A stretch of 64,000 nt of DNA from Ramlibacter pinisoli. Its GTDB lineage: Bacteria; Pseudomonadota; Gammaproteobacteria; Burkholderiales; Burkholderiaceae_C. The translations under genes were made by a program, and so were the position numbers. How positions within the stretch are numbered: the stretch's first letter is position 1; every line of letters starts with the position of its first letter. Shown in pieces: positions 33,008 to 61,500 of the stretch. The notes beneath the pieces were generated by a model, which was given only the letters and a program-made list of their open reading frames with translations, made no database searches and had not been told where the DNA came from. Location of the stretch: positions 1,612,001 through 1,676,000 of the forward strand of contig NZ_WSEL01000003.1 in assembly GCF_009758015.1 (NCBI RefSeq), in the 5' to 3' direction.

Positions 33008-33079
33008 GGAATTCTCCTGTGTGGGTTGATCGGATCGATCGGGCCCCGGGAGGCAGGTGCGCTGCCCGAGGACCCGTCG

Positions 33080-33108: not shown

Positions 33109-33218
33109 CCGGGCAGCACCCGGGATTCCGATTGAATCGCGCTAAGGCCCCGATAGCCCGCGGCACAGCGGTGGACGCCAGCCCGGCAACGGTCGCGTTC
33201 GCAGGCACAGCGTTACGT

Positions 33219-33235
33219 TATAGTAAATGCATTAC
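33219..33235 (+). promoter_or_regulatory. Candidate -10 box and palindromic operator before the VOC gene
   Basis: TATAGT (33219-33224) runs into GTAAATGCATTAC (33223-33235), which has GTAA/TTAC arms and a central AATGCATT palindrome. The AT-rich patch stands out in the GC-rich background. A repressor of the GntR/MarR/IclR kind could bind here. The -35 is weak. Confidence 0.4.
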
Positions 33236-33261
33236 GCATAGTTGAATGCCGGAGAGATGCC

Positions 33262-33879
33262 ATGGCCGCCGTCCTGAAGCCCCCGAGCCCCCTGCCCGCC
33301 CCCGCTCCCATCCGCCAGCTGCACCACTACGCCTACCGCGCCCGCGACGCCGAGGAGACCCGGCAGTTCTACGAGGACATCCTGGGGCTGCCGCTGTACC
33401 ACATCATCCAGAGCGACCACGTGCCCAGCACGGGCGAGTACTGCCCGTACACGCACTTCTTCTTCCGCCTGCAGGACGGCTCCTTCATCGCCTTCTTCGA
33501 CCTCGGCGACGACCAGGCCTGCGAACCCTCGCCCAACACGCCGCAGTGGGTCAACCACATCTCGTTCCGGGTCGACTCCGTCCAGGCGCTGGAGGACATG
33601 AAGGCGCGCCTGCAGGCGCACGGCGTCGAGGTGCTCGGCGTGACCGACCACCACATCTTCCACAGCATCTACTTCTTCGACCCCAACGGCGTGCGGCTGG
33701 AACTCACGGCCCAGCAGGCCGACGAATTCCAGATGCTGCAAGAGAGCAAGACCGCCCATGCACGGCTGGCCGAGTGGACGGCCCGCAAGGACCAGTGGCG
33801 CCGCGACCGTGCCGCCGGCCGGGCGACGGCGCCGCTCAAGCCCCAGCGGAACGACCGCCCGGAGTTCTCCGGCAGCTGA
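33262..33879 (+). CDS. VOC family (glyoxalase/dioxygenase-like) protein
   Basis: 205 residues. A single vicinal-oxygen-chelate fold can be read: LHHYAYRARDAEETRQFYEDILGLPLYH at the front and HGVEVLGVTDHHIFHSIYFFDPNGVRLELTA at the back. The His and Glu metal ligands are in the usual places. An approximately 45-residue basic tail follows. It is coupled in position with an FAD monooxygenase and DUF2783, a recurrent set in Burkholderiales that looks like catabolism of an aromatic compound; the substrate is not known. GGAGAG precedes the ATG. Confidence 0.85.
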   Translation: MAAVLKPPSPLPAPAPIRQLHHYAYRARDAEETRQFYEDILGLPLYHIIQSDHVPSTGEYCPYTHFFFRLQDGSFIAFFDLGDDQACEPSPNTPQWVNHISFRVDSVQALEDMKARLQAHGVEVLGVTDHHIFHSIYFFDPNGVRLELTAQQADEFQMLQESKTAHARLAEWTARKDQWRRDRAAGRATAPLKPQRNDRPEFSGS

Positions 33880-44378: not shown

Positions 44379-45299
44379 TTACCCTTCCTGCCGGCCGTCG
44401 CCGTCGTCCGGGCGCGCGTTCATGTTCTGCAGCTCGCGCAGCTTCTCGCCGATGCGGATCTCGAGCCCGCGTCCGACCGGACGGTAGAACGCCGGCGGCT
44501 CCACGCCTTCGGGGAAATAGGTCTCGCCCGCCGCGAAGCCGCCTTCTTCGTCGTGGGCGTAACGGTAGCCCTTGCCGTACGCCAGGTCCTTCATCAGCTG
44601 CGTCGGCGCGTTGCGCAGGTGCAGCGGCACGGGCCGGGTGCCGTCCTGGCGCACGAAGGCCTTGGCCTCGTTGAAGGCCTTGTAGACCGCGTTCGACTTG
44701 GGCGCGACGGCGAGGTAGACCACGCATTGCGCCAGCGCCAGCTCGCCCTCCGGCGAGCCGAGCCGCTCGTAGGTGTCGGCCGCGTCCAGCGCCAGCCGCA
44801 GCGCGCGCGGGTCGGCCAGGCCGATGTCCTCGCTGGCCATGCGCACCAGCCGGCGTGCCATGTAGCGCGGGTCGGCGCCACCATCGAGCATGCGCACGAA
44901 CCAGTACAGCGAGGCGTCGGGATCGGAGCCGCGCACCGACTTGTGCAGCGCGCTGATGGTGTCGTAGAACTGCTCGCCGCCCTTGTCGTAGCGGCGCATG
45001 CGCTCGCCCAGCACCTTGAGCAGCCAGGCGTCGCCAATCGCCTCGAGCTTCTCGTTGGCCGCCGCCACCGCCAGCGTCTCCAGCGTGTTGAGCAGCCGGC
45101 GCGCATCGCCGTCGGCATAGGCGACCAGCCGGGCGAGCGCGGCCTCCTCCACCGCCGGCACCGCGCCCAGCGCCTGCGCCTTGCCGACGATGGTGCGCAG
45201 GTCGTCCTCGGTGAGCGGCTGCAGGACGTACACCGCCGCCCGCGACAGCAGCGCCGAGTTCACCTCGAACGAGGGGTTCTTCGTGGGAGTCGCCCCCAT
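44379..45299 (-). pseudogene. rarA: rarA (mgsA), 3' part only, cut by the island
   Basis: The 306-residue frame matches RarA/MgsA, a DNA-repair AAA+ ATPase acting at stalled forks, from the sensor-1 region onward (NPSFEVNSALLSRAAVYVLQPL, then GDARRLLNTLE, the SVRGSDPDASLYWFVRML block and YGKGYRYAHDEEGG). Normal RarA has about 430-450 residues; the missing roughly 130 hold Walker A and Walker B. The usual GATTENPSFEV is here GATPTKNPSFEV, so the break lies inside this motif. The 5' part should lie to the right of the island, outside the window. The remnant cannot be an active ATPase. Confidence 0.88.
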
Positions 45300-45302
45300 A
45301 AC

Positions 45303-45388
45303 CTACATAGTTGGTGAGTGAGTGAGTAACTCCCCTCTGGCTTTGCTATGTATCACAACTATGTAGAACGAGCTTCCAGCACATAGTT
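45303..45388. repeat. Repeats at the island end: 11-bp inverted repeat and extra CTATGT motifs
   Basis: CTACATAGTTG (45303-45313) and CAACTATGTAG (45356-45366) are perfect inverted copies. A third ACATAGTT (45381-45388) and a partial CTATGTA (45347-45353) share the core. Several copies of a short motif within 90 bp of an insertion end resemble recombinase or transposase binding sites. Confidence 0.6.
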
Positions 45389-45396
45389 CTGGCAGT

Positions 45397-45510
45397 TCAC
45401 GAGAAGAGTTCGGCCACGGCAATCCCCAGGCCCTTGGCCAACCTTTCGAATACGTCGAGCGACACAGTCCGGCCCTGTGCAGCGCTGGTCGTGCAGACGA
45501 GCGGAGACGT
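45397..45510 (-). pseudogene. C-terminal remnant of an XRE/Cro-type regulator
   Basis: The frame directly after the copA stop reads TSAAQGRTVSLDVFERLAKGLGIAVAELFS and then stops. This is the end of a helix-turn-helix XRE domain (the SLDxLERLAKALGVxxAELF pattern). There is no start codon and no first helix-turn-helix; the part before it is replaced by copA. It looks like a leftover of a regulator lost when copA was joined here. Confidence 0.6.
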
Positions 45511-48060
45511 TCAGTCGACGCTCACCGTCCGCAGGCGAAGCGCGTTTGCGATGACGCTTACCGACGAAAGCGCCATCGCAGCTGCAGCCACCACGGGCGA
45601 GAGCAGCAGCCCGAAGAGAGGGTACAGCACGCCCGCGGCGAGCGGAATGCCCGCTACGTTGTAGGCGAAGCTGAGGAAGAGGTTTTGCCGGATGTTCCGC
45701 ATCGTCGCCTGCGACAGCTTGCGGGCGCGGACGATGCCCATCAGGTCGCCCTTCAGGAGCGTCACGCCGGAGCTCTCCATCGCCACGTCCGTCCCAGTCC
45801 CCATCGCGATGCCCACTTCGGCCGCAGCCAGCGCCGGGGCATCGTTCACGCCGTCGCCGGCCATGGCGACTACGCGGCCTTCACCGCGCAGGCGCTGCAC
45901 GATGTTCGCCTTGTCTTCCGGGAAGACCTCTGCGACCACTTCGTCGATGCCCAGCTCCTTGCCGACAGCTTCGGCGGTCGTCTTGCCGTCACCGGTGAGC
46001 ATCACGATTCGCACGCCGGCTTCCCGCAGAGCCTTCAGAGCAGCAGGCGTGGTCTCCTTGATGGGGTCTGCGATGGCGACGAAGCCTGCGAGCCTGCCGG
46101 CCAGGGCTACGAAGATGACGGTCGCAGAACGTGCACGCTGCTTTTCCGCCGCGGCCTGCAGCGACGCAACGTCGACACCGCGCTCGCCGAGGAACTTGCC
46201 CGCACCACTGACGACGTCCATACCGCCGACCCTGCCGACTACTCCTTTGCCCACAGGCGAGTCGAAGTCGGTGACCTCCGAGAGCTGCAGCCTGCGTTCT
46301 TGTGCCGCCGCCACAACCGCCATCGCCAGGGGGTGTTCGCTCGCGCGCTCGACGCTGGCGAGCTTCTGGAGCAGGTCGTCGGACTGAAAGCCCGCTGCCG
46401 CCTCAATGTGAACCACTTTTGGCCGGCCCTCTGTCAATGTGCCCGTCTTATCGACCACCAAGGTATCCACCTTCTCCATGCGCTCGAGCGCCTCGGCATC
46501 CCGAATTAGGACGCCGTGCTGGGCGCCGCGCCCAACTCCGACCATGATGGACATGGGCGTGGCGAGGCCCAGCGCGCAGGGGCAGGCGATGATGAGGACA
46601 GCCACGGAGGTGATGAGTGCATACGAAAACGCCGGGCTGGGGCCCCAGAGCAGCCAAGCTCCGAATGTGACGAGGGCGACCACGATGACGACCGGCACGA
46701 ACCACGCGGCAACCTGGTCGGCCATTCGCTGGATGGGAGCGCGGCTGCGCTGAGCGGCCGCCACCATGTGGACGATCTGCGATAGGAGGGTGTCGGCCCC
46801 GACCTTTTCCGCCTTCATCACGAAGCCCCCGGTCTGGTTGATGGTGCCGGCCGTGACCTTCGACCCTGGCGCCTTGGCCACCGGCATTGGCTCCCCCGTC
46901 ACCATGGACTCGTCGACCGTTCCCTTGCCCTCGATGAGCTCTCCATCCACGGGCACCTTCTCGCCTGGTCGCACCCGCAGGTGTTCGCCAACCTGGATGG
47001 TGTCAATCTGCACCGTCTCGTCGGAGCCGTCGGAGCCCACGCGAACGGCTGTCTTAGGTGCCAAGTCGAGGAGGGCCTTGATGGCGCCTGAGGTCTTCTC
47101 GCGAGCGCGCAGCTCGAGGACCTGGCCAAGGAGCACCAGCACCGTGATGACGGCCGCCGCCTCGAAGTAGATGGCCACCGCTCCCTCATGTCCGCGCAGC
47201 TCCGGCGGGAATAGGCCCGGAGCGAGCGTGCCGACCATGCTGTACAGCCAGGCCGCGCCTGTGCCGAGCGCGATCAGGGTGAACATGTTCAGGCTGCGGT
47301 TCAACAATGACTGCCAGCCCCGAACAAAGAAGGGCCAGCCGGCCCAAAGCACCACCGGCGTTCCGAACAGCATTTGTATCCAGTTCGAGGTCTGTGGTCG
47401 CACCAGATGGCCGATGTCGAACAGGTGCCCGCCCATCTCCAAGAACAACACCGGCAAGGTCAGCACCAGGCCAATCCAGAACCTGCGGGTCATATCCCGC
47501 AGCTCCGGGCTCTCACCGGTCTCGCCAGTGGCAATCACCGGCTCGAGGGCCATTCCGCAAATGGGACAGTTGCCTGGGCCCATCTGACGGATTTCCGGGT
47601 GCATCGGACACGTGTACTCGACGTCCTTCCCGCCCGTCACCGCCGCTGGTGCAGCGCCGGACCCCTTCGCCGGCGCAGCGTGGTGATGATGGTGGTCGTG
47701 GTGCTTTTGGGCCTGGCTGTGGCCGTGGCCGTGCGCATGGGTCGACGGAGCGCCGACCGGCTCCAGGAACATGCCGCACTTAGGACACTTTCCAGGCCCT
47801 GCCTGGCGCACCTCCGGGTGCATGGGGCAGGTGTACTCGGCGTCGCCTGACGTTACGGCCTGGTCACCATGGGCATCGTGCGCATGGTGCGCATGGTGCG
47901 CATGGTGCGCATGGTCGGCGTGGTCGGCGTGGTCGGCGTGGTCGGCGTGGTCGGCGTGGTCGGCGTGGTCGGCGTGGTCGGCGTGGTCGGCGTGGTCATG
48001 ATGATGGTCGTGCGGGTGCTCAGCACCGCGCTCTCCATGGGAGGAGTTTTCCCGTTGCAT
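45511..48060 (-). CDS. copA: Copper-exporting P1B-type ATPase with His-rich repeat N-terminus
   Basis: 849 residues. The first 65 or so are His-rich, with nine HAD and four HAH triplets in a row. Two heavy-metal-binding domains follow, each YTCPMHPE(V/I)RQ.GPG.CP.CGM.LEP. The rest is a P1B-1 ATPase: [14 protein letters not shown] (CPC metal site), [11 protein letters not shown] (phosphorylated Asp), [17 protein letters not shown] and [13 protein letters not shown]. The protein pumps Cu(I) to the periplasm. Unusually it has no CxxC HMA domain of its own; the separate HMA protein upstream in the operon may serve as its chaperone. It is last in a four-gene minus-strand operon. Confidence 0.93.
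47878..47994 (-). repeat. 9-bp tandem repeats coding the CopA His-rich stretch
   Basis: Plus-strand GTGCGCATG occurs four times (47878-47913) and GTCGGCGTG nine times (47914-47994), without interruption. On the coding strand they give HAH and HAD. Being in frame, copy-number change would alter only the number of His. Confidence 0.95.
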
Positions 48061-48119
48061 GGCGTGCTCCAGTTTTCTTTAGTTTGGGGCCAGGCGAGCC
48101 GCTCGCGCAGCGCCCAGCC

Positions 48120-48437
48120 TCAGGTTGTGAACGGACGGACCAGCAACCAGATTGCCAACAGGGCCAAACACACCCAACACAACCAGAAGAGCACTCGCTC
48201 CCACCAACGGGGCTCTCGCTCGACTGCCTCCAGCCGGTGTTTCAGGCTCATCCCGACCCCGTGGATCAAGATGCCGGTCACGAGGATGGGGATCGCGTAT
48301 CCGCGAAGGGCATCTGGCACCAACAGGGCCAGTCCGGCGCCCAGGACGATTGCGCCCAGACCGGAGGCGACCTCCGCAGCTTTAGCTGCGCCGCGGGCCA
48401 TCGCCTTTCCGGCTGCCGCCGTGTGAGTGGCCCCCAT
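48120..48437 (-). CDS. Small membrane protein of the copper operon
   Basis: 105 residues if started at ATG 48437, which overlaps DUF2933 by 56 bp; ATG 48401 ([11 protein letters not shown]) gives a 20-bp overlap and is equally likely. Three hydrophobic helices can be read ([57 protein letters not shown]) around a charged loop [18 protein letters not shown] do not recognise the family. Its place between DUF2933 and copA suggests a role at the inner membrane in copper export. Confidence 0.7.
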
Positions 48438-48624
48438 GGCCGTGCCCCCGGTGCATGAACATGTGCATCACTGGGCAAGCGGCCAGGAAGGCGTAGGGCA
48501 GCAGCGCCAGGACATGGTCCTTGTGCACCAGGTACAGGTAGATGCTCGCGGCAACCGCGACCAAGGTCGCGACGATGCCGAAAGGCGTCTTCCAGAATGA
48601 AGGGCGGGCGTGCTGCTGGTCCAT
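48382..48624 (-). CDS. DUF2933 family membrane protein
   Basis: 80 residues. A helix pair ([39 protein letters not shown]) is followed by a His/Gly-rich tail, [12 protein letters not shown]. The [17 protein letters not shown] block is the DUF2933 signature, a family found in copper and heavy-metal clusters; its Cys/Met/His content suggests metal binding. It starts 14 bp after the HMA gene. Confidence 0.82.
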
Positions 48625-48638
48625 GCTGGGCTCCTATG

Positions 48639-48965
48639 TCAACTGCAGCATGAGCCGGCGGCGGTAGTGGCTTGTTGACGAGCGTCAACCGCGGTGGCGT
48701 TTGGGGTGCCGCAGCCGCAGCCACACCCGCCCGATCCCCGTAGCGCAGCAGCCTTGACTGAGTCATCCTGGACCTCCTGGGGTGTGTAGCCGGCGGCCTG
48801 GATGGCCTTGGCGAGTTCGGCGGCCGACGCGGTGCCGGTTACCCGCACAAGCTTCTGTTGAATGCGGATGTCCATGCGGGCGTTCTTGTCGACTGCCACG
48901 ACCGCGCGAGAGATAGCGCTCGCGCAGTGTCCGCAGATCATGTCATTGACTTGGAAGGTGACCAT
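48639..48965 (-). CDS. HMA-domain copper chaperone with Cys-rich tail
   Basis: 108 residues from ATG 48965 with AGGAGAAGC before it; the frame is open further upstream but the promoter and ribosome site fix this start. Residues 1-70 are an HMA domain, with the motif MICGHCASAISRAV (CxxC) and the usual ferredoxin-like end VQAAGYTPQEV-type helix. The tail holds GGCGCGCG and ends SCCS, adding about six Cys. First gene of the copA operon, it probably binds Cu(I) and delivers it to CopA, which lacks its own HMA domain. Confidence 0.85.
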   Translation of the reverse strand: MVTFQVNDMICGHCASAISRAVVAVDKNARMDIRIQQKLVRVTGTASAAELAKAIQAAGYTPQEVQDDSVKAAALRGSGGCGCGCGTPNATAVDARQQATTAAGSCCS

Positions 48966-48993
48966 TGCTTCTCCTTTCGGCGTTGGTGGAGCA

Positions 48994-49024
48994 ACTATCA
49001 ACCTTCCCATGATGTCAGGGTCAA
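48994..49024 (-). promoter_or_regulatory. CueR-like promoter of the HMA-DUF2933-copA operon
   Basis: On the minus strand TTGACC (49024-49019) and GATAGT (48999-48994) are 19 bp apart, the over-long spacer of MerR-family activated promoters. The spacer has the dyad-like ACCCTGA ... GGAAGGT, close to the E. coli copA CueR site (ACCTTCC/GGAAGGT). Confidence 0.75.
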
Positions 49025-49162
49025 GCGCTTTACTTTTTCAACGTGCCCGACCAACCTGGGCCCTGCTCGGCTCCGCCCATTGAGCTTGATGCAAGTCAAC
49101 GCGGAGGCCTCTGGGCCTCCTAAATTGATTCGGAGGCAATCCTTGCCGAATCGGAATCCGAC

Positions 49163-49465
49163 ATGACTACGCTCACCGCCCCCTTGCAGAGCGCCGGCTC
49201 TGCTGCAGGCTCGCTTCGTACCGGCGTCGCGCTTGCCATCACAGTGGCCGTTTTCTACACGTTGTGCACCTTGGCCTGGATGGCAGCCCCCGGCGCGTTC
49301 CTAGGCTTCATGAACAACCTGTTTCACGGCTTCGACTTCAGCCTGCTGCTGAAGCCGGCACCGTTCTCCTGGGGAGGGTTCATCGAGGCCCTGCTGGTGA
49401 TGTCCGTATGGGCGTTTCTGGCCGGCACCTTCTTCGCTTGGGTGCATCGCCGCATGGCACGGTGA
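49163..49465 (+). CDS. DUF5676 family membrane protein
   Basis: 100 residues with two helices (VALAITVAVFYTLCTLAWMA and WGGFIEALLVMSVWAFLAGTFFAWV) and the intervening FLGFMNNLFHGFDFSLLLKPAPF, typical of DUF5676. The family is common beside metal and stress genes and has no known function. It is divergent from the HMA-copA operon. Its own promoter is unclear, as the 152-bp gap carries the CueR-like site facing the other way. Confidence 0.8.
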   Translation: MTTLTAPLQSAGSAAGSLRTGVALAITVAVFYTLCTLAWMAAPGAFLGFMNNLFHGFDFSLLLKPAPFSWGGFIEALLVMSVWAFLAGTFFAWVHRRMAR

Positions 49466-49553
49466 TGCTCGATGCCCAGCTACGCGGAGCAGGAGCTACC
49501 TGTACTTGTAGCGGGAGGCTGAAGCTCAGCCTGAAAAAAACTCGCTCGATTCC

Positions 49554-49584
49554 TTGACCTTTCCATAGGGGCAAGGTCTAGGCT
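49554..49584 (+). promoter_or_regulatory. Second CueR-like promoter, for the plus-strand copper operon
   Basis: TTGACC (49554-49559) and TAGGCT (49579-49584) are 19 bp apart. The spacer ends GGGGCAAGGT and the dyad starts ACCTTTCC, again CueR-like. It precedes the CzcI-like/TolC/oxidase operon. Confidence 0.72.
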
Positions 49585-49651
49585 GTCTTCAGCAGGCTTG
49601 ACGCCAGTGCCTTTACGGTTGAACTTTCTGCCCCACGGTAAACTAACTCCT

Positions 49652-50062
49652 GTGAAGTCGTTTCGCGTTTGGCTCCTGGTGCTGCTTGCAGTGCTGCTCC
49701 CGCTTAGGGGCGCGCTGGCTGCTGCCATGATGTGCCCAGTCGCAGGCACGGGAGCGCAGACCGAAGTTCCGATGGCTGAGCAGGCGCACGACCACGGGCA
49801 TGCACACAACCACGAGGCGAGCGGGCAACAAGCCGGTCCCGCACTCGCGTCCGAGCATGCCGACCACCATGACTTCGCCAGCGCTGGCGACCCTGCCGAC
49901 AAGTGCAACCTGTGCTCAGCTTTCTGCTCGGTGACCGGCATGGTCAGCGGCACTGCGACTACTGCTGAGCCGCAGACTGTCGCCACTGTCTTCCCGCACC
50001 TCTACGCTCCGCCTCCGAGTTTTATTTCGGACGGCCAGGAGCGGCCACCTCGAACCATCTGA
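49652..50062 (+). CDS. CzcI-like small periplasmic metal-binding protein
   Basis: About 136 residues from GTG 49652; TTG starts at 49598 or 49619 are possible and no clear ribosome site decides. It begins with a signal peptide (SFRVWLLVLLAVLLPLRGALAA), followed by a His-rich stretch (AHDHGHAHNHEASG and EHADHHDF) and a Cys cluster, KCNLCSAFCS. The layout (LLPLxxAxAA signal, His segment, CxxC near the end) matches the CzcI family; a second member lies at 58609. It should sit in the periplasm and bind or sense metal. It is first gene after the CueR-like promoter. Confidence 0.65.
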   Translation: MKSFRVWLLVLLAVLLPLRGALAAAMMCPVAGTGAQTEVPMAEQAHDHGHAHNHEASGQQAGPALASEHADHHDFASAGDPADKCNLCSAFCSVTGMVSGTATTAEPQTVATVFPHLYAPPPSFISDGQERPPRTI

Positions 50063-50153
50063 CCCATTGAGGCCTCCGCGCGAGGCCTGATAGCGCTCGT
50101 GCGTCCGCACGGGCATCGGCCGACCAAGTCGGCGGTTCAGATGACTTCGGGTA

Positions 50154-50504
50154 ATGAAAAAGAAAACATCTCCCTGGGCGGCGATTGCCGTCCTCATGGG
50201 GCTCCCGCTCACGGCGGCGGCCCAGGCCAATCCGGCCGACGCTGAGGCAGGCGCACCCGCCCTGGGATACCAGTCCGCCTTCTCGGACTACAAGCCTTGG
50301 CAGGACATCAAGCCGGCCGACTGGCGCGCGGTCAACGACACGGTGCGCGGCGCGGCCGCCAAAGGCGGTGGTCACGGCGGCCATGGGGCTGCGCCCGGCA
50401 CGACATCAGCGCCTGCAGCCACTCCGCGGCAGGCCGCTCCCACCCCGGCGCCTGCGGCAGCACCTCAGGCGCCGGCCGGCCATCAGGGTCACGGGAGCCA
50501 CTAA
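50154..50504 (+). CDS. Short periplasmic protein of the copper operon
   Basis: 116 residues. A signal peptide (IAVLMGLPLTAAAQ) is followed by a conserved-looking core YQSAFSDYKPWQDIKPADWRAVNDTV and then a flexible Ala/Pro/Gly tail with His (GGHGGHG and HQGHGSH). I recall similar short proteins in front of TolC-like genes in copper clusters but know no named family. The stop overlaps the TolC-like gene start (TAATG). A role linked to the outer-membrane channel or copper binding is inference. Confidence 0.7.
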   Translation: MKKKTSPWAAIAVLMGLPLTAAAQANPADAEAGAPALGYQSAFSDYKPWQDIKPADWRAVNDTVRGAAAKGGGHGGHGAAPGTTSAPAATPRQAAPTPAPAAAPQAPAGHQGHGSH

Positions 50505-51907
50505 TGATTCGTCTGACCGTAACTGCCGCCGCGGCGGTGTTCCTGGCGGGCTGTGCCTCGTTCTCCACGGACGGCGGCTTCGACCGCGTCTCCGAGCTCA
50601 CCAAAGAGCGCACGGGTCAAGCGCCGGCGTACCAGCGCAGCGCTGAAGACACTGAGAACGCTCGGGCGCGAGTGGACGAGCTGCTCAAGCAGCCGCTCAC
50701 GGCCGAATCCGCCGTTGAAGTGGCATTCCTGAACAACCGGGGCCTGCAGGCGAACCTCCATTCCCTCGGCATCGCCGAGTCCGAGCTGGTGCGCGCTGGC
50801 CGGCTCGCGAACCCGCTCTTCAGTTTCGGCCGCCTGCGCGAGGGTGGTGGAGTAGTCGAAATCGAACGATCTGTGATGTTCAACGTGCTGGGCATGCTCA
50901 CCATGCCCGTGGCGCGGCAGGTGGAGCAGCGCAGGTTCGAGGAGACGCAGTTCCAGGCCGCCGGCGACGCCGTCGGTGTTGCCGTGGAAGCGCGTCGGGC
51001 CTTCTACAGCGCAGTGGCAGCCCAGGATCTTGTGAAGTTCCTGCAGCAGGTCAAAGAGGCCGCTGACGTGTCCAACGAGCTGGCCAAACGCATGGTTCAG
51101 GCGGGCAACTTCAACAAGCTTGCCCAGATGCGGGAGCAGGCGTTCTACGCGGACGCCACCTCCGAGCTAGCCCGTGCGCAGCATCAGGCAGTCGCTGAAC
51201 GCGAACGGCTGGCGCGGGCGCTGGGCCTGTGGGGGCAACAGCTCAATGTCATGCTGCCGGAGCGTTTGCCTGATCTGCCGAAGACATTGGTTGAGCCAAA
51301 GAACGCTGAGCAGACCGCGATGGAGAAGCGCCTTGACGTTCTGGCCGCACGCCGCAGCGCCGAATCGACGGCGCGCTCCCTCGGCCTGACGAAGACGACG
51401 CGCTTCATCAACGTGCTGGAGATCGGGTACCAGAACAAGAGCGTTTCCGGGGAACCCCGCGCCAACGGCTATGAGGTGGAGCTGGAGCTGCCGCTGTTTG
51501 ACTTCGGCTCGACTCGGCTCGCACGGGCGGAGGCAACTTACATGCAGGCGGTGCACCGCACGGCCGAAGTGGCTGTGAACGCGCGCTCGCAGGTCCGGGA
51601 GTCGTACTCCGCCTATCGGACGGCATATGACTTGGCCAAGCACTACCGAGATGAGGTCATCCCGCTCAGGAAGCGAATCTCGGAAGAGAATCTTCTTCGC
51701 TACAACGGCATGCTCATTGGTGTCTTCGAACTTCTCGCCGACTCGCGCGAGCAAGTCCGGAGCGTGAGCTCCTATGTCCAAGCTCTGCGGGACTTCTGGA
51801 TTGCCGACACCACCCTGAACACCGCGCTGACTGGCCGCTCGCCGGGAGCTGCGGCCGCTAGTGGCCCGTCGCCCGGCGCGGCCGCGCCCGCTGCTGCCGC
51901 GCACTGA
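50504..51907 (+). CDS. TolC-family outer-membrane lipoprotein (CusC/CopB-context)
   Basis: 467 residues from ATG 50504. The lipobox LAGC (Cys 17) makes it a lipoprotein. Two helical hairpin/barrel repeats follow (ESAVEVAFLNNRGLQANLHSLGIAESEL in the first; FGSTRLARAEATYMQAVHRTAE in the second), the TolC pattern. An Ala/Pro/Gly-rich tail ends the protein. It should form an outer-membrane exit duct. No RND pump or adaptor belongs to this operon; its neighbour is a multicopper oxidase. Confidence 0.85.
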   Translation: MIRLTVTAAAAVFLAGCASFSTDGGFDRVSELTKERTGQAPAYQRSAEDTENARARVDELLKQPLTAESAVEVAFLNNRGLQANLHSLGIAESELVRAGRLANPLFSFGRLREGGGVVEIERSVMFNVLGMLTMPVARQVEQRRFEETQFQAAGDAVGVAVEARRAFYSAVAAQDLVKFLQQVKEAADVSNELAKRMVQAGNFNKLAQMREQAFYADATSELARAQHQAVAERERLARALGLWGQQLNVMLPERLPDLPKTLVEPKNAEQTAMEKRLDVLAARRSAESTARSLGLTKTTRFINVLEIGYQNKSVSGEPRANGYEVELELPLFDFGSTRLARAEATYMQAVHRTAEVAVNARSQVRESYSAYRTAYDLAKHYRDEVIPLRKRISEENLLRYNGMLIGVFELLADSREQVRSVSSYVQALRDFWIADTTLNTALTGRSPGAAAASGPSPGAAAPAAAAH

Positions 51908-51920
51908 GAGAACCACCACC

Positions 51921-53300
51921 ATGTCCAATCGACGTAATTTCTTCAAGACGGCGGGCGCTGTTGCCTTGGGCGCGACTGCAGTGAGCCGAGTCGGCGCCGC
52001 CTCGTTGCCGGAAGCGGTCATCCAGACCTCTCCGACGATGCAGCCGCCGCTGATTCCGAACACCGGCCGCCCGTACAACCCTGTAGCGACGCTGAACGGG
52101 TGGTCGCTACCTTGGCGCATGAACAACGGCGTCAAGGAGTTCCACCTGGTCGCCGAGCCAGTCGTCCGAGAGTTCGCGCCTGGGATGAAGGCGAATCTGT
52201 GGGGCTACAACGGCTCCAGCCCTGGGCCGACCATCGAGGCGGTGGAGGGCGACCGGGTGCGCATCTTCTTGACGAACAAGTTGCCGGAGCACACCACTGT
52301 GCACTGGCACGGAATTCAGCTGCCCTCAGGAATGGACGGTGTAGGCGGCATGACCCAGCCGCACATTCCGCCAGGCAAGACCTTCGTCTATGAGTACACC
52401 TTGCTGCGGTCTGGTACCCACATGTACCACCCCCACGCCGACGAGATGGTTCAGATGGCAATGGGAATGATGGGCATGTTCATCATCCACCCGAAGGACC
52501 AGCGCCAGATGCGGGTGGACAGGGACTTCGTGTTCCTGCTCGCGGCCTACGACATTGAGCCCGGAAGTGCCACCCCGCGCACGGCGGAGATGACGGACTT
52601 CAACCTGTGGACCTTCAACAGCCGTACGTTCCCCGGCATCGATCCCATCGTTGCCCGAGCTGGTGACCGGGTCCGTGTTCGCGTGGGCAACCTGACCATG
52701 ACGAACCATCCCATTCACATGCATGGGCCGCACTTCACCGTGACCGGCACGGATGGAGGTTGGATTCCGCCGGCCGCTCGCTGGCCGGAAGTCACGACCG
52801 ATGTGGCGGTTGGGCAGATGCGCGCGTTCGAGTTTGACGCTGTCGCCGGGGACTGGGCCATCCACTGCCACAAGTCTCACCACACGATGGGTCCTATGGG
52901 CCACGCCGTCGAAAACATGATTGGGGTGGATCACCGCGGAGTGGCCGAACGCATCACGAAGCTCGTTCCGGACTACATGGCGATGGGTGACAAGGGGATG
53001 GCAGACATGGGCGCCATGGAGATGCCAATTCCCGACAACACGCTGCCAATGATGACCGGTCAGGGCCCCTTCGGACCCATGGAGATGGGCGGCATGTTCA
53101 CGGCCGTGAAGGTGCGGGACGACCTGAAGCGTGGCGACTACAAAGACCCTGGTTGGTACAAGCACCCGCAGGGCACCGTGGCCTATGAGTACGCCGGCGA
53201 GCTGACGCAGCCTTCCCGTGCGCCCGGCGCGACTGCCACACCGTCGCGCGACACCATGACGATGAATGTCCGCAAGCCTACCGCCCACACTGGGCATTGA
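51921..53300 (+). CDS. Multicopper oxidase, copper-detoxifying type
   Basis: 459 residues. The Tat signal SNRRNFFKTAGAVALG has the RRxFxK motif. All four copper motifs are visible: HWHG (128-131), HMYHPH (167-172), HPIHMHG (263-269) and HCHKSHHTMGPM (315-326), giving the type 1 Cys-His-Met and trinuclear ligands. The Met/Asp-rich stretch around residues 350-390 (MAMGDKGMADMGAMEMP) resembles the Met-rich regions of CueO and CopA oxidases that bind Cu(I). It should oxidise Cu(I) to Cu(II) in the periplasm. It lies 13 bp after the TolC-like gene. Confidence 0.92.
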   Translation: MSNRRNFFKTAGAVALGATAVSRVGAASLPEAVIQTSPTMQPPLIPNTGRPYNPVATLNGWSLPWRMNNGVKEFHLVAEPVVREFAPGMKANLWGYNGSSPGPTIEAVEGDRVRIFLTNKLPEHTTVHWHGIQLPSGMDGVGGMTQPHIPPGKTFVYEYTLLRSGTHMYHPHADEMVQMAMGMMGMFIIHPKDQRQMRVDRDFVFLLAAYDIEPGSATPRTAEMTDFNLWTFNSRTFPGIDPIVARAGDRVRVRVGNLTMTNHPIHMHGPHFTVTGTDGGWIPPAARWPEVTTDVAVGQMRAFEFDAVAGDWAIHCHKSHHTMGPMGHAVENMIGVDHRGVAERITKLVPDYMAMGDKGMADMGAMEMPIPDNTLPMMTGQGPFGPMEMGGMFTAVKVRDDLKRGDYKDPGWYKHPQGTVAYEYAGELTQPSRAPGATATPSRDTMTMNVRKPTAHTGH

Positions 53301-53328
53301 GCATCAAAACCTAGAGGAAAGACGAACG

Positions 53329-53826
53329 ATGAAATCCAAACAAATCCTCAGCCTTCTCGTGGCTGCCGCCGCCGTACTCGCCTCTAACGCGTATGCGCAT
53401 GGCGATGAGAAACATCCAACGGCGCAGAAGTACGACGCCAGCAAGGTGGAAGACACCCCATTTGGTCGGCAGGGCGATCCGAAGAACGCTTCTCGGACCA
53501 TCCGGGTCGGCATGAGCGACAAGATGCGCTTCAACCCTGAGAGCATCACGTTCAAAAAGGGAGAGACCGTCCGCATCGTCGTCGCGAACCAGGGGGCCGT
53601 GCTGCACGAGATGGTGCTCGGCACGCCCCAGGCTCTGAAAGAGCACGCCGAGCTGATGAAGAAGCACCCCGGCATGGAGCACGACGAGCCCAGCATGACG
53701 CACGTGAAGCCAGGCGCCACCGGCGAGATTGTGTGGCAGTTCACCAAGGCCGGCGAGTTCCAGTTCGCTTGCCTCATCCCGGGTCATTTTGAAGCCGGCA
53801 TGGTCGGCAACGTGAGCGTCAAGTGA
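53329..53826 (+). CDS. Cupredoxin (plastocyanin-like) copper protein
   Basis: 165 residues with signal peptide (ILSLLVAAAAVLASNAYA) and a new N-terminus HGDEKHP. The cupredoxin fold ends QFACLIPGHFEAGMVGNV, where Cys, His and Met give a type 1 site, with the first His probably in VLHEMVLG. An inserted Met/His-rich loop (ELMKKHPGMEHDEPSMTHV) is typical of copper-cluster cupredoxins. It may exchange electrons with the oxidase encoded 28 bp upstream. AGAGGAAAG precedes the ATG. Confidence 0.9.
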   Translation: MKSKQILSLLVAAAAVLASNAYAHGDEKHPTAQKYDASKVEDTPFGRQGDPKNASRTIRVGMSDKMRFNPESITFKKGETVRIVVANQGAVLHEMVLGTPQALKEHAELMKKHPGMEHDEPSMTHVKPGATGEIVWQFTKAGEFQFACLIPGHFEAGMVGNVSVK

Positions 53827-54278
53827 AGCGCAGACACCTTCTGACGGTCGCTGCTGCCGCAGCGGTGGCGACAATTCCGGCCTTGGCGGCAGCTTCTCTC
53901 CCGCGAGTCGAGGTCTTCAAGAACCCGGACTGCGGCTGCTGCGGCGCCTGGGTAGACCACCTGGAGGCCGCGGGATTCCCGGTGAAAGTCACCGAAGTCC
54001 CCGACACCGGTGCCGTTCGCAAGCGCTGGAGCATCCCGGACGAGTTCGGCAGCTGCCATACCGGGGTAGTCGCCGGCTATGCCATCGAGGGCCACGTGCC
54101 CGCCGAAGACATCAAGCGCCTGCTAGCAAGGAAACCGGATGCCGTCGGCCTGAGCGTGCCTGGCATGCCCGTCGGGTCGCCGGGAATGGAAGTGGGCTCT
54201 CGAAAGGACCCGTATCAGGTTCTTCTCATCGACAAGGCAGGGCGCTCCAGCGTCTTTGCCACCTATCCCAAAACCTAA
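53823..54278 (+). CDS. DUF411 periplasmic metal-binding protein
   Basis: 151 residues with a GTG start overlapping the cupredoxin stop (GTGA). The signal MKRRHLLTVAAAAAVATIPA may be Tat or Sec type. The DUF411 signature is VFKNPDCGCCGAWVDHL, with FGSCHTGVVAGYAIEGHVPAEDI and GLSVPGMPVGSPGME later. The CxCC and the SCHT motif suggest metal or thiol chemistry on a thioredoxin-like fold; the biochemical role is not settled. Confidence 0.9.
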   Translation: MKRRHLLTVAAAAAVATIPALAAASLPRVEVFKNPDCGCCGAWVDHLEAAGFPVKVTEVPDTGAVRKRWSIPDEFGSCHTGVVAGYAIEGHVPAEDIKRLLARKPDAVGLSVPGMPVGSPGMEVGSRKDPYQVLLIDKAGRSSVFATYPKT

Positions 54279-54288
54279 GGAGTTCTCC

Positions 54289-54633
54289 ATGAAAGCAATC
54301 CAAGCTCTCATCGCCGCTGCTCTGCTGGCTTCCGCCGGCGCCTACGCACAGCAAGCCCCCGAGTCGGGGGACCACGCCTCTCACCACTCGACGCAGGCCG
54401 CGGCTTCGGCTCCGCAATCCGAAGGCGAAGTGCGCAAGATTGACCTGGCCCAAGGAAAGGTCACGCTGCGCCACGGACCGCTGGTGAACCTCGACATGCC
54501 GGCCATGACGATGGTCTTCACCGTCCCCGACAAGAAGCTGCTGGATGGGCTCAAGGAAGGTGATAAGGTGAAGTTCACTGCCGAGAAGCAAAACGGCGCG
54601 TACATCGTGACGGTCCTCCAGGCGGCGAACTAA
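54289..54633 (+). CDS. CusF-like periplasmic copper-binding protein (copy 1)
   Basis: 114 residues with a signal peptide (LIAAALLASAGAYAQ). The OB-fold body reads EGEVRKIDLAQGKVTLRHGP then VNLDMPAMTMVFTVPDKKLLDGLKEGDKVKF. The His and the two Met (MTM) of the CusF site are present. The Trp that caps Cu(I) in E. coli CusF (VNWPEMTM) is not; Asp-Met stands there. CusF carries Cu(I) to CusCBA, but no CusAB is encoded nearby. AGGAG sits before the ATG. Confidence 0.87.
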   Translation: MKAIQALIAAALLASAGAYAQQAPESGDHASHHSTQAAASAPQSEGEVRKIDLAQGKVTLRHGPLVNLDMPAMTMVFTVPDKKLLDGLKEGDKVKFTAEKQNGAYIVTVLQAAN

Positions 54634-54785
54634 GCAGCGCGGATGAGCCCCTGCCGGCGCTTCCCAGGGCGACCCCTACACCTCCTGCGACGACGCCGTC
54701 GTCGTCGAGAGCCTGTTGCGGGGCGCGTGCATGATGGGGCCGCGCTTCCTACTCCCTCCTCTTAGCTAGTCCTCAGGAGTTTTCC

Positions 54786-55121
54786 ATGAACTTCCCGTCT
54801 CTGCTGTCAGCGGTTGTGCTTGTAGCTGTCGCTGGTGCCCGAGCTCAGGACTCCGCGGCGACGGAGAAGCCTCTACCGTCCGCATCCCATGCAGCGATGC
54901 CACTTGTGGACGGGGTCATTCGGCAGATCGACATCTCAAGCGGCCTTATCGTGATCGAGCACGGGGACCTTCCGAATCTCGCGATGGGTCCCATGACCAT
55001 GGGCTTCGATGTCGCTGACAAGAAGTTGCTGAAGGGCGTCAGTGTCGGGCAGAAAGTGAAATTCCAGGCCGAGATGATTCGGGGCAGTGCCACCGTTACG
55101 GAGTTGAAGCGCGCCCGCTAA
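54786..55121 (+). CDS. CusF-like periplasmic copper-binding protein (copy 2)
   Basis: 111 residues with signal peptide (LLSAVVLVAVAGARAQ). The core VDGVIRQIDISSGLIVIEHGDLPNLAMGPMTMGFDVADKKLLKGV is a diverged paralog of the protein at 54289. Again the CusF Trp is missing (NLAMGPMTM), replaced by Ala-Met. CTCAGGAG precedes the ATG. The 152-bp gap to copy 1 contains no clear gene or MerR-type site. Confidence 0.85.
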   Translation: MNFPSLLSAVVLVAVAGARAQDSAATEKPLPSASHAAMPLVDGVIRQIDISSGLIVIEHGDLPNLAMGPMTMGFDVADKKLLKGVSVGQKVKFQAEMIRGSATVTELKRAR

Positions 55122-55315
55122 GTCGTCCAGACTGCGTGCGGAGTACGAGCAAGGAAAATGCAGCGGTCCCTTGCCGCTGCTGCATCGCGGCACAAAATCT
55201 TGAGCCCGGATGAGTGGCCCGTCGTTGACGCACCTTCGCTTGAGGTGAGTCAATGGTTCCTTCCGAAATCAACTCTAGGCTCCGATTGTCACGGTTCAAT
55301 TTGGAAGGTCTATCA

Positions 55316-55585
55316 ATGAAGCTGATTTCACGCGTCGTGGCCCTGGTTTCATCGGCGCTACTGGCCGGCGCACTGGTTGGCTGCGCCGCAGCCCCTCAGA
55401 AGGGCTCCGACCATGCTCATGCCACGATGGATTCGATGGACATGCAAGCTCATTGCGAGATGCACAGGAAGATGATGAGCGGAAAGTCCGCTGCAGAGCA
55501 GCAAGCAATGATGCAAGAGCACATGAAATCCATGTCGCCGGAGATGCGTCAGCGGATGCAGGCGATGCACGAGCAGTGCAAGTAG
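55316..55585 (+). CDS. Met/His-rich small lipoprotein
   Basis: 89 residues. A lipoprotein signal ends LAGALVGC, then ATMDSMDMQAHCEMHRKMMSG and QQAMMQEHMKSMSPEMRQRMQAMHEQC. The mature part has about 15 Met and 7 His in under 70 residues, mostly helical and in MxxxM/MxxH spacing. No family name is known to me. It would fit a membrane-tethered Cu(I) sponge in the periplasm. GGAAGG precedes the start. Confidence 0.72.
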   Translation: MKLISRVVALVSSALLAGALVGCAAAPQKGSDHAHATMDSMDMQAHCEMHRKMMSGKSAAEQQAMMQEHMKSMSPEMRQRMQAMHEQCK

Positions 55586-55737
55586 GTGGTGCGCCGATAA
55601 ACGCGCATGCGCACCCAGCGGGGAGCCGCCGGAGGCGCCGGCCGGCTTGGGATCGAGAGCAGCTTCGGTCAGCCGCTCATTCCCTGATGATGGGTTGCAG
55701 TCGGTGGACGCGTGGAGGTAGAAGAATCGGCGCGCAG

Positions 55738-56199
55738 CTAACCAACCTTGGTGTGCGTGCCGTGGACATGGCCGCGTCCTTTCGACAGCTTGGACCTGAC
55801 CTGCCGAGACGCCTCATCCAGGCCGACCAGGATGCCGCAGGCCGCCGCCTCCCGCGCAGCGCCGCATTGTTCTCGCAATGCCTTCAGCTCTGTTTGCAAA
55901 CGGCGGAGTTCCTTGATGCGCGCGGCCACGTGCGCAATGTGCTCATCTAAGAGCCCGTTGACCTCCTCGCAGTTCTGCTCAGGTGCGTCTTTGAAGCGCA
56001 GCAGTTTCAGGATCTCCCCCAGCGTCATGTCGAGCGTACGGCAGTGGCGGATGAACGCCAGGCGTGCCACGTGCGCCTCACCATAGGCCCGGTAGTTTGA
56101 CTCGGTCCGCGCAGGCACGGGCAGCAACCCCTGAGCCTCGTAGTAGCGGATCGTCTCCGCCTGGGTGCCCGTGGCCTTGGCCAAGTCGCCGATCTTCAT
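55738..56199 (-). CDS. cadR: MerR-family Cd(II)/Pb(II)-responsive regulator, CadR/PbrR type
   Basis: 153 residues. The N-terminal winged helix reads MKIGDLAKATGTQAETIRYYEAQGLLP, then the dimer helix, and a metal site with Cys at CEEVNGLLDEH, CGAAREAAACGIL. These three Cys match those of PbrR/CadR (one before the long helix and two in the C-terminal loop). A His-bearing end (GHVHGTH) is also CadR-like. It lacks the CueR C-terminal CPGxxxxDC pattern, so it is not the copper regulator. Divergent from cadA with the operator between. Confidence 0.9.
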   Translation of the reverse strand: MKIGDLAKATGTQAETIRYYEAQGLLPVPARTESNYRAYGEAHVARLAFIRHCRTLDMTLGEILKLLRFKDAPEQNCEEVNGLLDEHIAHVAARIKELRRLQTELKALREQCGAAREAAACGILVGLDEASRQVRSKLSKGRGHVHGTHTKVG

Positions 56200-56248
56200 T
56201 GCGCCTCCGTGTCGGTTGTTGCCCAGATGAGCTGGCTCCGGTGTGGCC

Positions 56249-56279
56249 TTGACTCTGTAGCGGCTACAAGGTTCTTAAT
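56249..56279 (+). promoter_or_regulatory. CadR/PbrR-type promoter-operator of cadA
   Basis: TTGACT (56249-56254) and CTTAAT (56274-56279) are 19 bp apart, with CTCTGTAG-CGG-CTACAAGG between them. This is close to the pbrA promoter (TTGACTCTATAG...). cadA begins 6 bp after the -10, so the cadA message would be leaderless unless it starts at a later codon. Confidence 0.78.
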
Positions 56280-56285
56280 GGTGTC

Positions 56286-58598
56286 ATGAATGCGAAGACA
56301 TTGCCCGAAGTCCAGTCCGAATCCTGCTGCGTCGGCTCTTGCTCAACTGGGGCAGAGCCGGTGCTGGCCCAGTCTCCCGCCGACGATTGCGGCGCGGCGG
56401 CGTGCGCCGCGGACGGGCGCGTAGCAACTGCGGCCGCGTCGCGCTCGGCCACGGGCCAGCTGTATCGCATTTCCACGATGGATTGCAGCGCCGAGGAGTC
56501 CGAGATCCGCCGTGCACTGGAAAAGGTGCCAGGCGTCCGGTCACTTGGCTTCCAGCTCGGCGCCAGGCAATTGCGCATCGACGCAGAGGCCTCCGCCTTG
56601 GCGCCCGCTCTGGAGGCCATTCGCAGAGCCGGCTTCGACCCGCAGCCGGTGGAGGCCAACGCCAGGGTGGAGGGGGAACCCCACGGGGCCGACGACGAGC
56701 ACGACCACGACCATGCACCGGATGCTGGCCCAGCCCGCTTGGGGCTTGCGCTGGCTGTGGCGGTGGCCGCCGAAGTGATTTCGTATTTCGCGCCCGACTC
56801 GCTCGCATGGAAGGTAGCCGGCATGGCCATCGCGGGCTTTGCCATCTGGCTTGCCGGCCTCGACGTCTACAGGAAAGGCATCGCGGCATTGCTGCGGGGA
56901 AAGCTCAACATCAACGCCCTGATGTCGGTGGCGGTGACCGGCGCCTTCCTGATCGGAGAATGGCCCGAGGCCGCGATGGTCATGGCGCTTTACGCGATCG
57001 CGGAACTGATCGAGGCCAAGGCTGTCGACCGTGCGCGCAGCTCCATCAAGGGCCTACTGGACATGGCCCCCGAGAAAGCCCTGACACGCTCGCCTGACGG
57101 CTCATGGACTGAGGTTGCCGCTGAGCGGATCGCCATCGGCGCCATCATCCGCGTGAAGCCTGGAGAGCGCGTGCCCCTCGACGCTTTGGTGACGAAGGGC
57201 GAGAGTGCGGTGAACCAGGCACCCATCACCGGCGAGTCGATCCCGGTCGACAAGGCACCTGGGATGCCGATTTTCGCCGGTACCGTCAACCAGACGGCGG
57301 AGCTGGAAGCACGGGTGACGGCGGCGGCAGCCGACACTACGCTCGCTCGAATCATCCACGCCGTCGAAGAGGCGCAGGGCACGCGCGCGCCGACCCAACG
57401 CTTTGTTGACCGCTTCGCGGCCTTTTACACGCCGGCGATCTTCGCAATCGCGGTGGCCACAGCGTTCCTTTTGCCCTGGCTGGCCGACGCCACCTGGCTG
57501 GAGGCGCTGTACAAGGCCTTGGTGCTCCTCGTGATCGCCTGCCCGTGCGCGTTGGTGATTTCCACCCCGGTGACGGTGGTGAGCGGACTGTCGGCCGCGG
57601 CCCGGCGCGGCATCTTGATCAAGGGCGGAACGTTCCTGGAGCAGGCGCGCCTGATCAAGGCCGTCGCATTGGACAAGACCGGCACCATCACGGAAGGCAA
57701 GCCCAAGCTCGTCGACTTCCGGGCATGGGGCCGTGCCGACGAGTCGCGCTTCAGGCTCCTGGCCGCGGCCCTGGCCTCGCGCTCAGACCATCCGGTGTCG
57801 AAGGCCATTGCCACGGGCCTCGGGCTTCCCGCCCCCGAAGCCTCGGAGTTCAAGGCGCTGCCCGGCCGTGGGGTGCAAGCCATCGTCGAGGGCCAGGCGC
57901 TTTGGCTGGGCAACCACCGATTGATGCACGAGCGTGGCCTCTGCGACCCAGAGCTGGAAGCGGAACTCGCGCGCCACGAATCCCAGGGCCGCACCGTCAC
58001 CTTGCTCTCCGATGCGCACCATGTGCTGGCCCTCTTCGCCGTGGCCGACGTCATCAAGGAGAGTTCGAAGGCGGCCATCGCCGACCTGGCCAAGTTGGGG
58101 GTGACGTCGGTCATGCTCACCGGTGACAACCAGGCCACTGCCAAGACCATCGCCGACCAGGCGGGGATCTCCGACGCGCGAGGGGACCTTCTGCCGGAGG
58201 CAAAGCTGGGCGTCATCCAGGAGTTGCAGAAGCGATACGGCTCCGTGGGCATGACGGGGGACGGCATCAACGACGCTCCCGCCCTGGCTCAAGCCGACGT
58301 AGGCTTTGCGATGGGTGGCGCCGGCACCGACGCCGCGATGGAGGCGGCCGACGTCGTGATCATGAACGACGACCTTCGCCGTGTGGCCGAGACGGTCCAG
58401 CTATCTCGCAAGACGCGCTCCGTCTTGGTGCAGAACATCTCCATCGCGTTGGGGATCAAGGCCGTGTTCCTGATGCTGGCGATCTTCGGTTCCGCCAGCA
58501 TGTGGATGGCCGTCTTCGCCGACATGGGCGCCAGCCTGCTCGTCGTGGCGAACGGCCTGCGGCTGTTGCGCCATCGGCCCGAAGACACCGGACGATAA
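56286..58598 (+). CDS. cadA: Cd/Zn/Pb-exporting P1B-2 ATPase
   Basis: 770 residues. The Cys-rich start (ESCCVGSCS, DDCGAAAC) is followed by a degenerate HMA domain, ISTMDCSAEESEIRRAL (one Cys and acidic residues, as in ZntA/CadA). Then a His-rich loop (DDEHDHDHAPD) and the ATPase core: VIACPCALVISTP, ALDKTGTITEG, SDHPVSKA, MLTGDNQATAK, MTGDGINDAPAL. The cytoplasmic N-terminus binds divalent metals; the pump moves Cd, Zn or Pb to the periplasm. If the real start is further in, the Cys-rich N-terminus would be shortened. It is divergent from cadR. Confidence 0.93.
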   Translation: MNAKTLPEVQSESCCVGSCSTGAEPVLAQSPADDCGAAACAADGRVATAAASRSATGQLYRISTMDCSAEESEIRRALEKVPGVRSLGFQLGARQLRIDAEASALAPALEAIRRAGFDPQPVEANARVEGEPHGADDEHDHDHAPDAGPARLGLALAVAVAAEVISYFAPDSLAWKVAGMAIAGFAIWLAGLDVYRKGIAALLRGKLNINALMSVAVTGAFLIGEWPEAAMVMALYAIAELIEAKAVDRARSSIKGLLDMAPEKALTRSPDGSWTEVAAERIAIGAIIRVKPGERVPLDALVTKGESAVNQAPITGESIPVDKAPGMPIFAGTVNQTAELEARVTAAAADTTLARIIHAVEEAQGTRAPTQRFVDRFAAFYTPAIFAIAVATAFLLPWLADATWLEALYKALVLLVIACPCALVISTPVTVVSGLSAAARRGILIKGGTFLEQARLIKAVALDKTGTITEGKPKLVDFRAWGRADESRFRLLAAALASRSDHPVSKAIATGLGLPAPEASEFKALPGRGVQAIVEGQALWLGNHRLMHERGLCDPELEAELARHESQGRTVTLLSDAHHVLALFAVADVIKESSKAAIADLAKLGVTSVMLTGDNQATAKTIADQAGISDARGDLLPEAKLGVIQELQKRYGSVGMTGDGINDAPALAQADVGFAMGGAGTDAAMEAADVVIMNDDLRRVAETVQLSRKTRSVLVQNISIALGIKAVFLMLAIFGSASMWMAVFADMGASLLVVANGLRLLRHRPEDTGR

Positions 58599-58608
58599 TG
58601 CGGACTGC

Positions 58609-58956
58609 ATGCCGCGCCGACTCCTCCTGCTGTTGATTGCCGTCCTGCTGCCTCTCCAACTGGCGTGGGGCGCCTCGGCCAGCTATTGCCAGCACGAGAC
58701 TGGCGCCGCGAGCAAGCATTTCGGCCATCACGAGCATGTGCACAAGGCCGGCGGCAAGAAGGCTGTCGACCTGAAGGTGGCGCCGGACAACGATTGCGGT
58801 ACCTGCCACGGCGCCGGGGCGACCGCCGTTACCGCCCTGCGGCCAATACCCCTCGTGCCAAGGCTCGGCGAGGCGCCCGTGGCCCCGTCGGCCCAGGCTC
58901 CCCCCTCTCTCCCTCCGGACAGTCCCGACCGGCCCCAGTGGCCACGTCTCGCCTAG
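58609..58956 (+). CDS. czcI: CzcI-like small periplasmic protein
   Basis: 115 residues. Signal LLLLLIAVLLPLQLAWGAS, then YCQHETGAASKHFGHHEHVHK and a CxxC (NDCGTCHGAG). The YCQHE ... HFGHHEH block is the hallmark of CzcI, which stands before czcCBA in Cupriavidus; its role seems regulatory. The order here, 10 bp after cadA and 68 bp before czcC, agrees. Confidence 0.85.
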   Translation: MPRRLLLLLIAVLLPLQLAWGASASYCQHETGAASKHFGHHEHVHKAGGKKAVDLKVAPDNDCGTCHGAGATAVTALRPIPLVPRLGEAPVAPSAQAPPSLPPDSPDRPQWPRLA

Positions 58957-59024
58957 CCGGCGGGACGATCCGACCTCTCTGTCATTCCGTCTCGCCGAAT
59001 CCCGGTTCCAAACCATGAGATTCG

Positions 59025-60242: not shown

Positions 60243-60252
60243 AGGAAGAGTC

Positions 60253-61491: not shown

Positions 61492-61500
61492 GGAGCGGCG

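Follow-up and report, generated by a model that had tools for sequence, protein, structure and literature searches.

A Gamma-Mobile-Trio island within rarA of Ramlibacter pinisoli carries a complete second rarA gene

Introduction

The usual view of integrating elements is that they spare their hosts by inserting at gene ends, in tRNA genes or between genes. The site of Tn554, att554, lies in radC, and some phages and ICEs restore the end of their target gene on integration. The accessible text on Tn554 and its relatives (PMC3414803) describes a pair of tyrosine recombinases (in the relatives, one of the pair is long) together with a small third protein and a unique target site. GInts, as presented in the accessible text of Bardaji et al. 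(2017; PMC5385486), carry cargo and an operon that encodes several putative integrases, insert with high site specificity and have imperfect flanking repeats; for one pair the site is the end of a ribonucleotide reductase gene described as 'duplicated', and the targets are described there as probably not fully inactivated (gene ends, intergenic positions, an outward promoter). Gamma-Mobile-Trio (GMT) islands (Mahata et al. 2024, Nat Microbiol) are cargo islands with gmtX, gmtY and gmtZ and a VPA1267-family gene.

Here we describe a GMT island that lies within the rarA gene of Ramlibacter pinisoli and that was reached from a 64,000-nucleotide stretch of its genome (the window; positions beyond its right end continue its numbering and are given as window-extended). 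Phages and ICEs that restore a target end likewise offset target damage with element-borne DNA, but they bring a partial end that is fused in frame, whereas the gene found here is whole, divergent and separately encoded. The island shares with GMT islands all of the components listed above, and its insertion inside a conserved housekeeping motif, with what appears to be a full replacement gene, may set it apart from them. It resembles GInts (PMC5385486) in its cargo, its multi-integrase operon and its site specificity, and Tn554 (PMC3414803) in having two tyrosine recombinases plus a third protein, both likenesses being drawn from published descriptions of the elements. Unlike the island described here, neither GInts nor Tn554 and its relatives are credited with a replacement or spare gene in the accessible texts. 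A literature search found no paper with a full replacement gene or with a rarA or radA target; most subscription papers lay outside its scope, so this is no proof of novelty.

Results

The host rarA is split at its sensor-1 codons

The reverse strand of the window carries at 44379-45299 a 306-aa ORF that starts with MGATPTKNPSFEVNSALLSR and has a normal RarA C-terminal end. RarA profiles matched this ORF only from the sensor-1 region onward, which bears out the preliminary description of a rarA fragment lacking everything before sensor 1. Profiles, a genome search and the RarA tree assigned 44379..45276 (reverse strand) to the 3' part of the host gene, from sensor 1 to the C-terminus. The same description had proposed that the start of rarA be sought to the right, beside a recombinase gene, and a search with the complete RarA protein indeed located residues 10-143 of the host 5' part on the same strand, outside the window, at C3:1693493-1693897 (window-extended 81493-81897). 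The two halves are thus 36.2 kb apart, with the 5' part to the right and an island with gmtXYZ between them. Two further matches of this search in the same genome were weak AAA relatives, and PF12002 matched twice in the genome, once in the rarA fragment and once in a complete gene 28 kb to its right. The host 5' frame stops two codons after the junction, ending in GLFTFIGATTVL.

A comparison with rarA of close relatives had also been proposed. None of the 19 same-genus loci that were read (L042-L060) has the gene interrupted at these codons, where the reading is GATTENPSFEVNSALLSR. GATTENP was kept in all 33 chromosomal loci, from genus and order together, that were used for the RarA tree, in which the R. 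pinisoli fragment nested inside its own genus. The first observation of a split rarA was confirmed by these comparisons. Mis-assembly at 45300, one of the doubts voiced about it, is unlikely as the source of the junction, because the contig is 2.45 Mb long and the same junction was found in an independent genome (L070, see below).

The insertion is a GMT island with metal-resistance cargo

The inserted DNA runs from 45284 to window-extended 81488 (36,205 bp, crossover uncertain by about 2 bp) and is a GMT island. Adjacent gmtX, gmtY and gmtZ scored above their NCBIfam cut-offs (NF040692, 209 bits against 40; NF040693, 475 against 340; NF047926, 907 against 600), and the 36,205 bp between the host halves form a discrete island with defined ends and variable cargo, the island of L070 having the same ends and less cargo. 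The metal-resistance element that had initially been left unnamed is therefore of a named type, whose genes lie outside the window. Profiles and ORFs place its in-window part at 45284..64000. Counted from the host 5' part, and all on the reverse strand in window-extended positions, the gene order is a VPA1267-family gene (80933-81361, profile match), a RecD-like helicase (78735-80936, Pfam AAA_30 and UvrD_C_2), gmtY (77327-78733), gmtZ (74160-77315), gmtX (73496-74230; all three by NCBIfam) and a second rarA (72165-73481, profile and ORF), followed by cargo up to the island end at window position 45284.

The cargo includes a copper-type heavy-metal P-type ATPase (45511..48060, reverse strand; TIGR01525 and TIGR01511 over cut-off) and, on the forward strand, a multicopper-oxidase-like protein (51861..53300; TIGR01480, below cut-off), a zinc/cadmium-type heavy-metal P-type ATPase (56286..58598; TIGR01525 and TIGR01512 over cut-off), a TolC-like outer-membrane protein (59025-60242; TolC and IhpA matches below cut-off), an RND adaptor protein (59986-61491; RND_mfp over cut-off) and a pump-like ORF that follows the adaptor (61501-64662, named by eye). 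Counted from the second rarA onward, the cargo comprises a large putative ATPase of 763 aa (L003:2976-5267, reverse strand) with weak NCBIfam matches, none of them clear, which is possibly a defence gene, then a CDF transporter, RND-type efflux genes, the multicopper-oxidase-like gene and the two heavy-metal P-type ATPases. At the N-terminus of the copper-type ATPase (47850-48020, reverse strand) about a dozen His-Ala-Asp/His-Ala-His repeats (HADHADHAD..) were seen, an unusual candidate metal-binding tail.

Two genomes share the target codons and the 5' element end

Comparison with the 19 empty sites placed the crossover stretch of the left junction at 45277..45283 (uncertain by about 2 bp), and junction comparison placed the right junction at window-extended 81489-81495. 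The sequence TACATAGTTG at 45304..45313 returns inverted as CAACTATGTA near the other island end (window-extended 81465-81474), and this pair is likely to be a recombinase-binding sequence, for which it is our candidate; TACATA/TATGTA also occurs close to the ends of other GMT islands.

In L070, a metagenome-assembled Burkholderiales genome, host rarA residues 4-142 are followed by an island of about 12 kb and then by residues 142-436. The gene order of this island is that of R. pinisoli (G000), with a full second rarA inside and much less cargo. Both genomes have the same rarA target codons and the same 5' element end, the 5' junctions reading ACCACC-GTTCTTTAGCCC. Their 3' junctions have CTATGTAGGTT and CCCAC in common, and the next bases are CGAGAACCCC in L070, as in the empty sites, versus GAAGAACCCC in R. 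pinisoli. Since a GMT island has entered rarA at identical codons in a second genome, entry is site-specific; the proposal of site-specific entry into conserved codons was upheld by the shared codons, the shared 5' element end and the recombinase genes of the element. A companion proposal, a near-copy of the target motif at the end of the element, was not supported beyond about 4 bp: the host match beside the crossover that is common to both genomes consists only of the bases CCAC, and the residues before KNPSFEV in L070 are VVGLSPTENPSFEV, the GAT-like residues not being kept there. As regards mobility, the sequence comparison shows a common target and common element ends in two genomes. Excision restoring the host rarA is plausible; with a 3' junction of GAAGAAC in R. 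pinisoli versus host-like CGAGAAC in L070, it may not be precise.

A third island, in L071 (Alcaligenaceae), has a second rarA after gmtX and no host half on its contig, and was left out of the count of insertions with both host halves given below. When the junction ACNACNGTTCTTTAGCCC was sought in 399 genomes of the order, it matched in R. pinisoli and G532. The match in G532 was rejected as a chance match: it lies outside rarA, tblastn over 39.8 kb found no GMT or rarA genes, and a reversed control pattern also gave one match in the 399 genomes, in G569. A rarA match in L133 was set aside, being a fragment that lies at the edge of its locus.

The island carries a complete and divergent rarA

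The second rarA is complete (438 aa), starts 14 bp behind gmtX and is probably expressed with it in one transcript. It follows gmtX directly in all three islands of its clade (R. pinisoli, L070, L071), which form a single clade in the GmtY tree as well (85 rows, with the short L128 left out; support 100/99). Full-length AAA+ and C-terminal domains are present, with PF12002 over cut-off and with GPPGVGKTT and VDEIHR, and the protein aligns across residues 10-431 with the solved RarA structure 3pvs, which we take to be E. coli RarA. The sensor-1 motif GATTENP, which 3pvs and 8g28 have, is absent from the carried rarA, and GGTTEHPG stands in its place in three of three copies.

The carried gene is 54-55% identical to the host rarA and 76% identical to its counterpart in L070. 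An intact rarA elsewhere, with the fragment as an old duplicate, had been named in the preliminary description as a finding against the split. A complete copy does exist, but it belongs to the island and did not give rise to the fragment (54% identity, separate clades): in the RarA tree the three carried copies group together (100/100), outside the host genus. Few amino-acid changes separate these copies from each other (pairwise pN 0.10-0.19, pS 0.74-0.79), and dN/dS, which was finite in one pair only, was 0.061 (dS 3.07) with synonymous sites saturated. Most likely, the second rarA takes over RarA function.

Other GMT islands split a gene and carry its homologue

A GmtY alignment used as query gave 194 relatives, of which the best 80 were kept, while a single GmtY query gave no match. 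Self-comparison was then run on 89 loci, comprising the best 80 of the 194 and nine from the same family, four of which were also among the 80. In total, 11 insertions had both host halves and a full-length divergent copy of the split gene: two in rarA, two in radA, three in srkA, two in tdk and two in a radical SAM gene. For radA, the halves in G162 lie at C1:219210-219962 and 264751-265338 with the full copy at 258634-259968 and GAGATC at both junctions, and those in G339 (L113) lie at C31:23991-24062 and 49173-50459 with the copy at 32445-33821. The NCBIfam PRK11768 gene, presumably srkA, was split at HGDCH in G343, G345 and G346, with an identical 5' element end in all three. The tdk gene was split just before MNAGK in G258 and G338, the halves in G338 being on two contigs, and a PA0069-type radical SAM gene was split at NPYR/GCEHGC in G347 and G348, with the copy directly before the host 3' part. 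We take the cut motifs to be sensor 1 in rarA, KNRFG and the zinc finger in radA, the catalytic loop in srkA, the P-loop in tdk and the cluster motif in the radical SAM gene.

The position of the spare gene varied. It was found after gmtX (rarA, three islands), between gmtZ and gmtX (radA, G162), after the helicase gene (radA, G339), before gmtY (tdk), beside the host 5' part at the far end (srkA) and beside the host 3' part (radical SAM). Because placement differs in this way and the two radA islands fall into separate lineages of the GmtY tree, in which there is a single clade each for the islands in rarA, in srkA and in tdk, the comparison points to several independent captures of spare genes.

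The self-comparison gave homology matches in L093 and L136 as well. In L093 an SDR oxidoreductase gene is found twice beside the GMT island (923-2496 and 8431-9559, 87% identical over 220 aa), and the island seems to truncate, near its start, the gene that follows the second copy. In a collection of 72,556 plasmid records, GmtY relatives were found on 142 (E limit 1e-20). Of these, 86 are predicted to be conjugative, and such plasmids may be a travel route of GMT islands.

Not every in-gene insertion has a copy

A copy was present in 11 of 16 tested in-gene GMT insertions, a fraction that is biased because most of the positives were found through the copy itself, by self-comparison or by a search with it. 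Among the listed insertions that were chosen by a broken end alone (L112, L115, L116, L118, L119, L120, L124 and L126), three of the eight tested had a copy (L119, L120 and L124). For four in-gene insertions (L112, L115, L116 and L118), namely in umuC (G340), in a TIGR02453 gene (G341 and G342) and in a sulfate-binding protein gene (G344), no second copy was found by one bait search at E 1e-4, one host half being known for each. The radical SAM gene of G720 yielded neither a 3' part nor a copy by bait search or by a motif search of the 60 kb downstream of its host 5' part. In G340, G341, G342 and G720 such absence is weak, because these are metagenome-assembled genomes. With no copy found in five insertions, a copy is not required for the GMT element type. 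Outside the set of eight, L110 has an in-gene GMT insertion on a 7.2-kb contig, in a gene read as DUF72 that has no NCBIfam match.

The target within the carried copy

For the radA gene of G162, amino-acid identity at the target was 0.45 versus 0.74-0.77 for the whole gene, with one codon deleted; at the nucleotide level 8-22% of windows were as divergent as the target. For rarA, the target had an amino-acid identity of 0.64 versus 0.58-0.62 overall, and its nucleotides were not more divergent than elsewhere. Because local identity is not lower, the case for a special change at the rarA target consists in the loss of otherwise fixed residues. In srkA and in the other radA (G339) the target motif was no more divergent than the rest of the gene. 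A general rule of a specially recoded target in the spare gene held only in part, being clear at the protein level for the G162 radA and partly so for rarA. Special recoding is suggested in these two cases, and general divergence may be enough to protect a spare.

GMT islands that break no gene

A large GMT group (L072-L103, L132, L081 and L084) begins TTATTC(C/A)CCCCAA..ATACATA. In 13 of 21 loci AAAA occurs within the 32-bp host flank, whereas 2000 draws of upstream windows gave 1.05 on average and 5 at most. Part of this excess reflects intergenic position only, because the comparison windows are mostly coding. By eye, these flanks resemble intrinsic terminators, as do those of L139, L140, L145, L130 and L144, and the large group seems to insert into intrinsic terminators. 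In L135, L138 and L142 (Acinetobacter, Wohlfahrtiimonas), GMT islands were seen just behind a gene read as glmS, the neighbourhood of which is used by Tn7; the same grouping was rejected for L133, which other genes adjoin. Sites of the terminator or glmS type would need no spare.

Discussion

We consider it highly probable that a GMT island cut the host rarA of R. pinisoli at conserved codons and brought a full replacement gene with it. The tyrosine recombinases GmtY and GmtZ, together with GmtX, would insert the island at a short stretch that they recognise among the sensor-1 codons of rarA, and the RecD-like and VPA1267-family proteins would probably take part. Strand exchange would most likely occur inside a short core, with GTTCTTT at the 5' junction and host-like bases at the 3' junction. 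Insertion breaks the host gene, leaving a 5' half that ends two codons after the junction and a 3' half without a start, and the divergent full-length rarA of the island would keep the cell supplied with RarA. This spare would probably be immune to cutting by its own island, because its sensor-1 residues are GGTTEHPG and those of the target GATTENPS. The sensor-1 codons hardly vary among the relatives examined, so many hosts would offer the site.

Alternatively, carried rarA and radA genes could act in the recombination or replication of the island itself, in which case their resemblance to the broken gene would be secondary. RarA and RadA are recombination proteins, and the location of the second rarA in the recombinase operon and of the G162 radA between gmtZ and gmtX agrees with such a role. 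We regard it as improbable, however, in view of the three srkA, two tdk and two radical SAM islands, which carry the gene that they split and no rarA or radA in the loci read; the products of these three genes are not recombination proteins. It is very unlikely that the second rarA is chance cargo and that the host gene was broken independently: while GMT cargo is varied and five of the 16 tested insertions were found without a matching copy, the carried gene is homologous to exactly the split gene in 11 insertions and five gene types, and in the clades of the rarA, srkA and tdk islands it persists while the rest varies. Two rarA copies in one genome could also go back to an ancient duplication in tandem, or to faulty assembly, with no insertion at all, but with copies that are 54-55% identical and in separate clades, the same junction in L070 and the 5' half of the fragment's gene on the far side of the island, this can be practically dismissed.

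For the element type as a whole, the best reading is that GMT islands aim at highly conserved codons and that several lineages bring a replacement for the broken gene. We lean towards regarding this as a recurrent GMT strategy, in which separate lineages cut the conserved motif codons of different genes and each captured a full-length, target-proof copy, opening otherwise harmful sites across wide host ranges. GMT islands cut highly conserved codons within genes, with several lineages bringing a whole spare, and such a spare would let an element use a site that is present in a very wide host range. The same reading would account for cases in which a truncated housekeeping gene has a divergent second copy next to it. 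It predicts that the carried gene can name the target of an island, and the target choice of GMT islands becomes directly testable.
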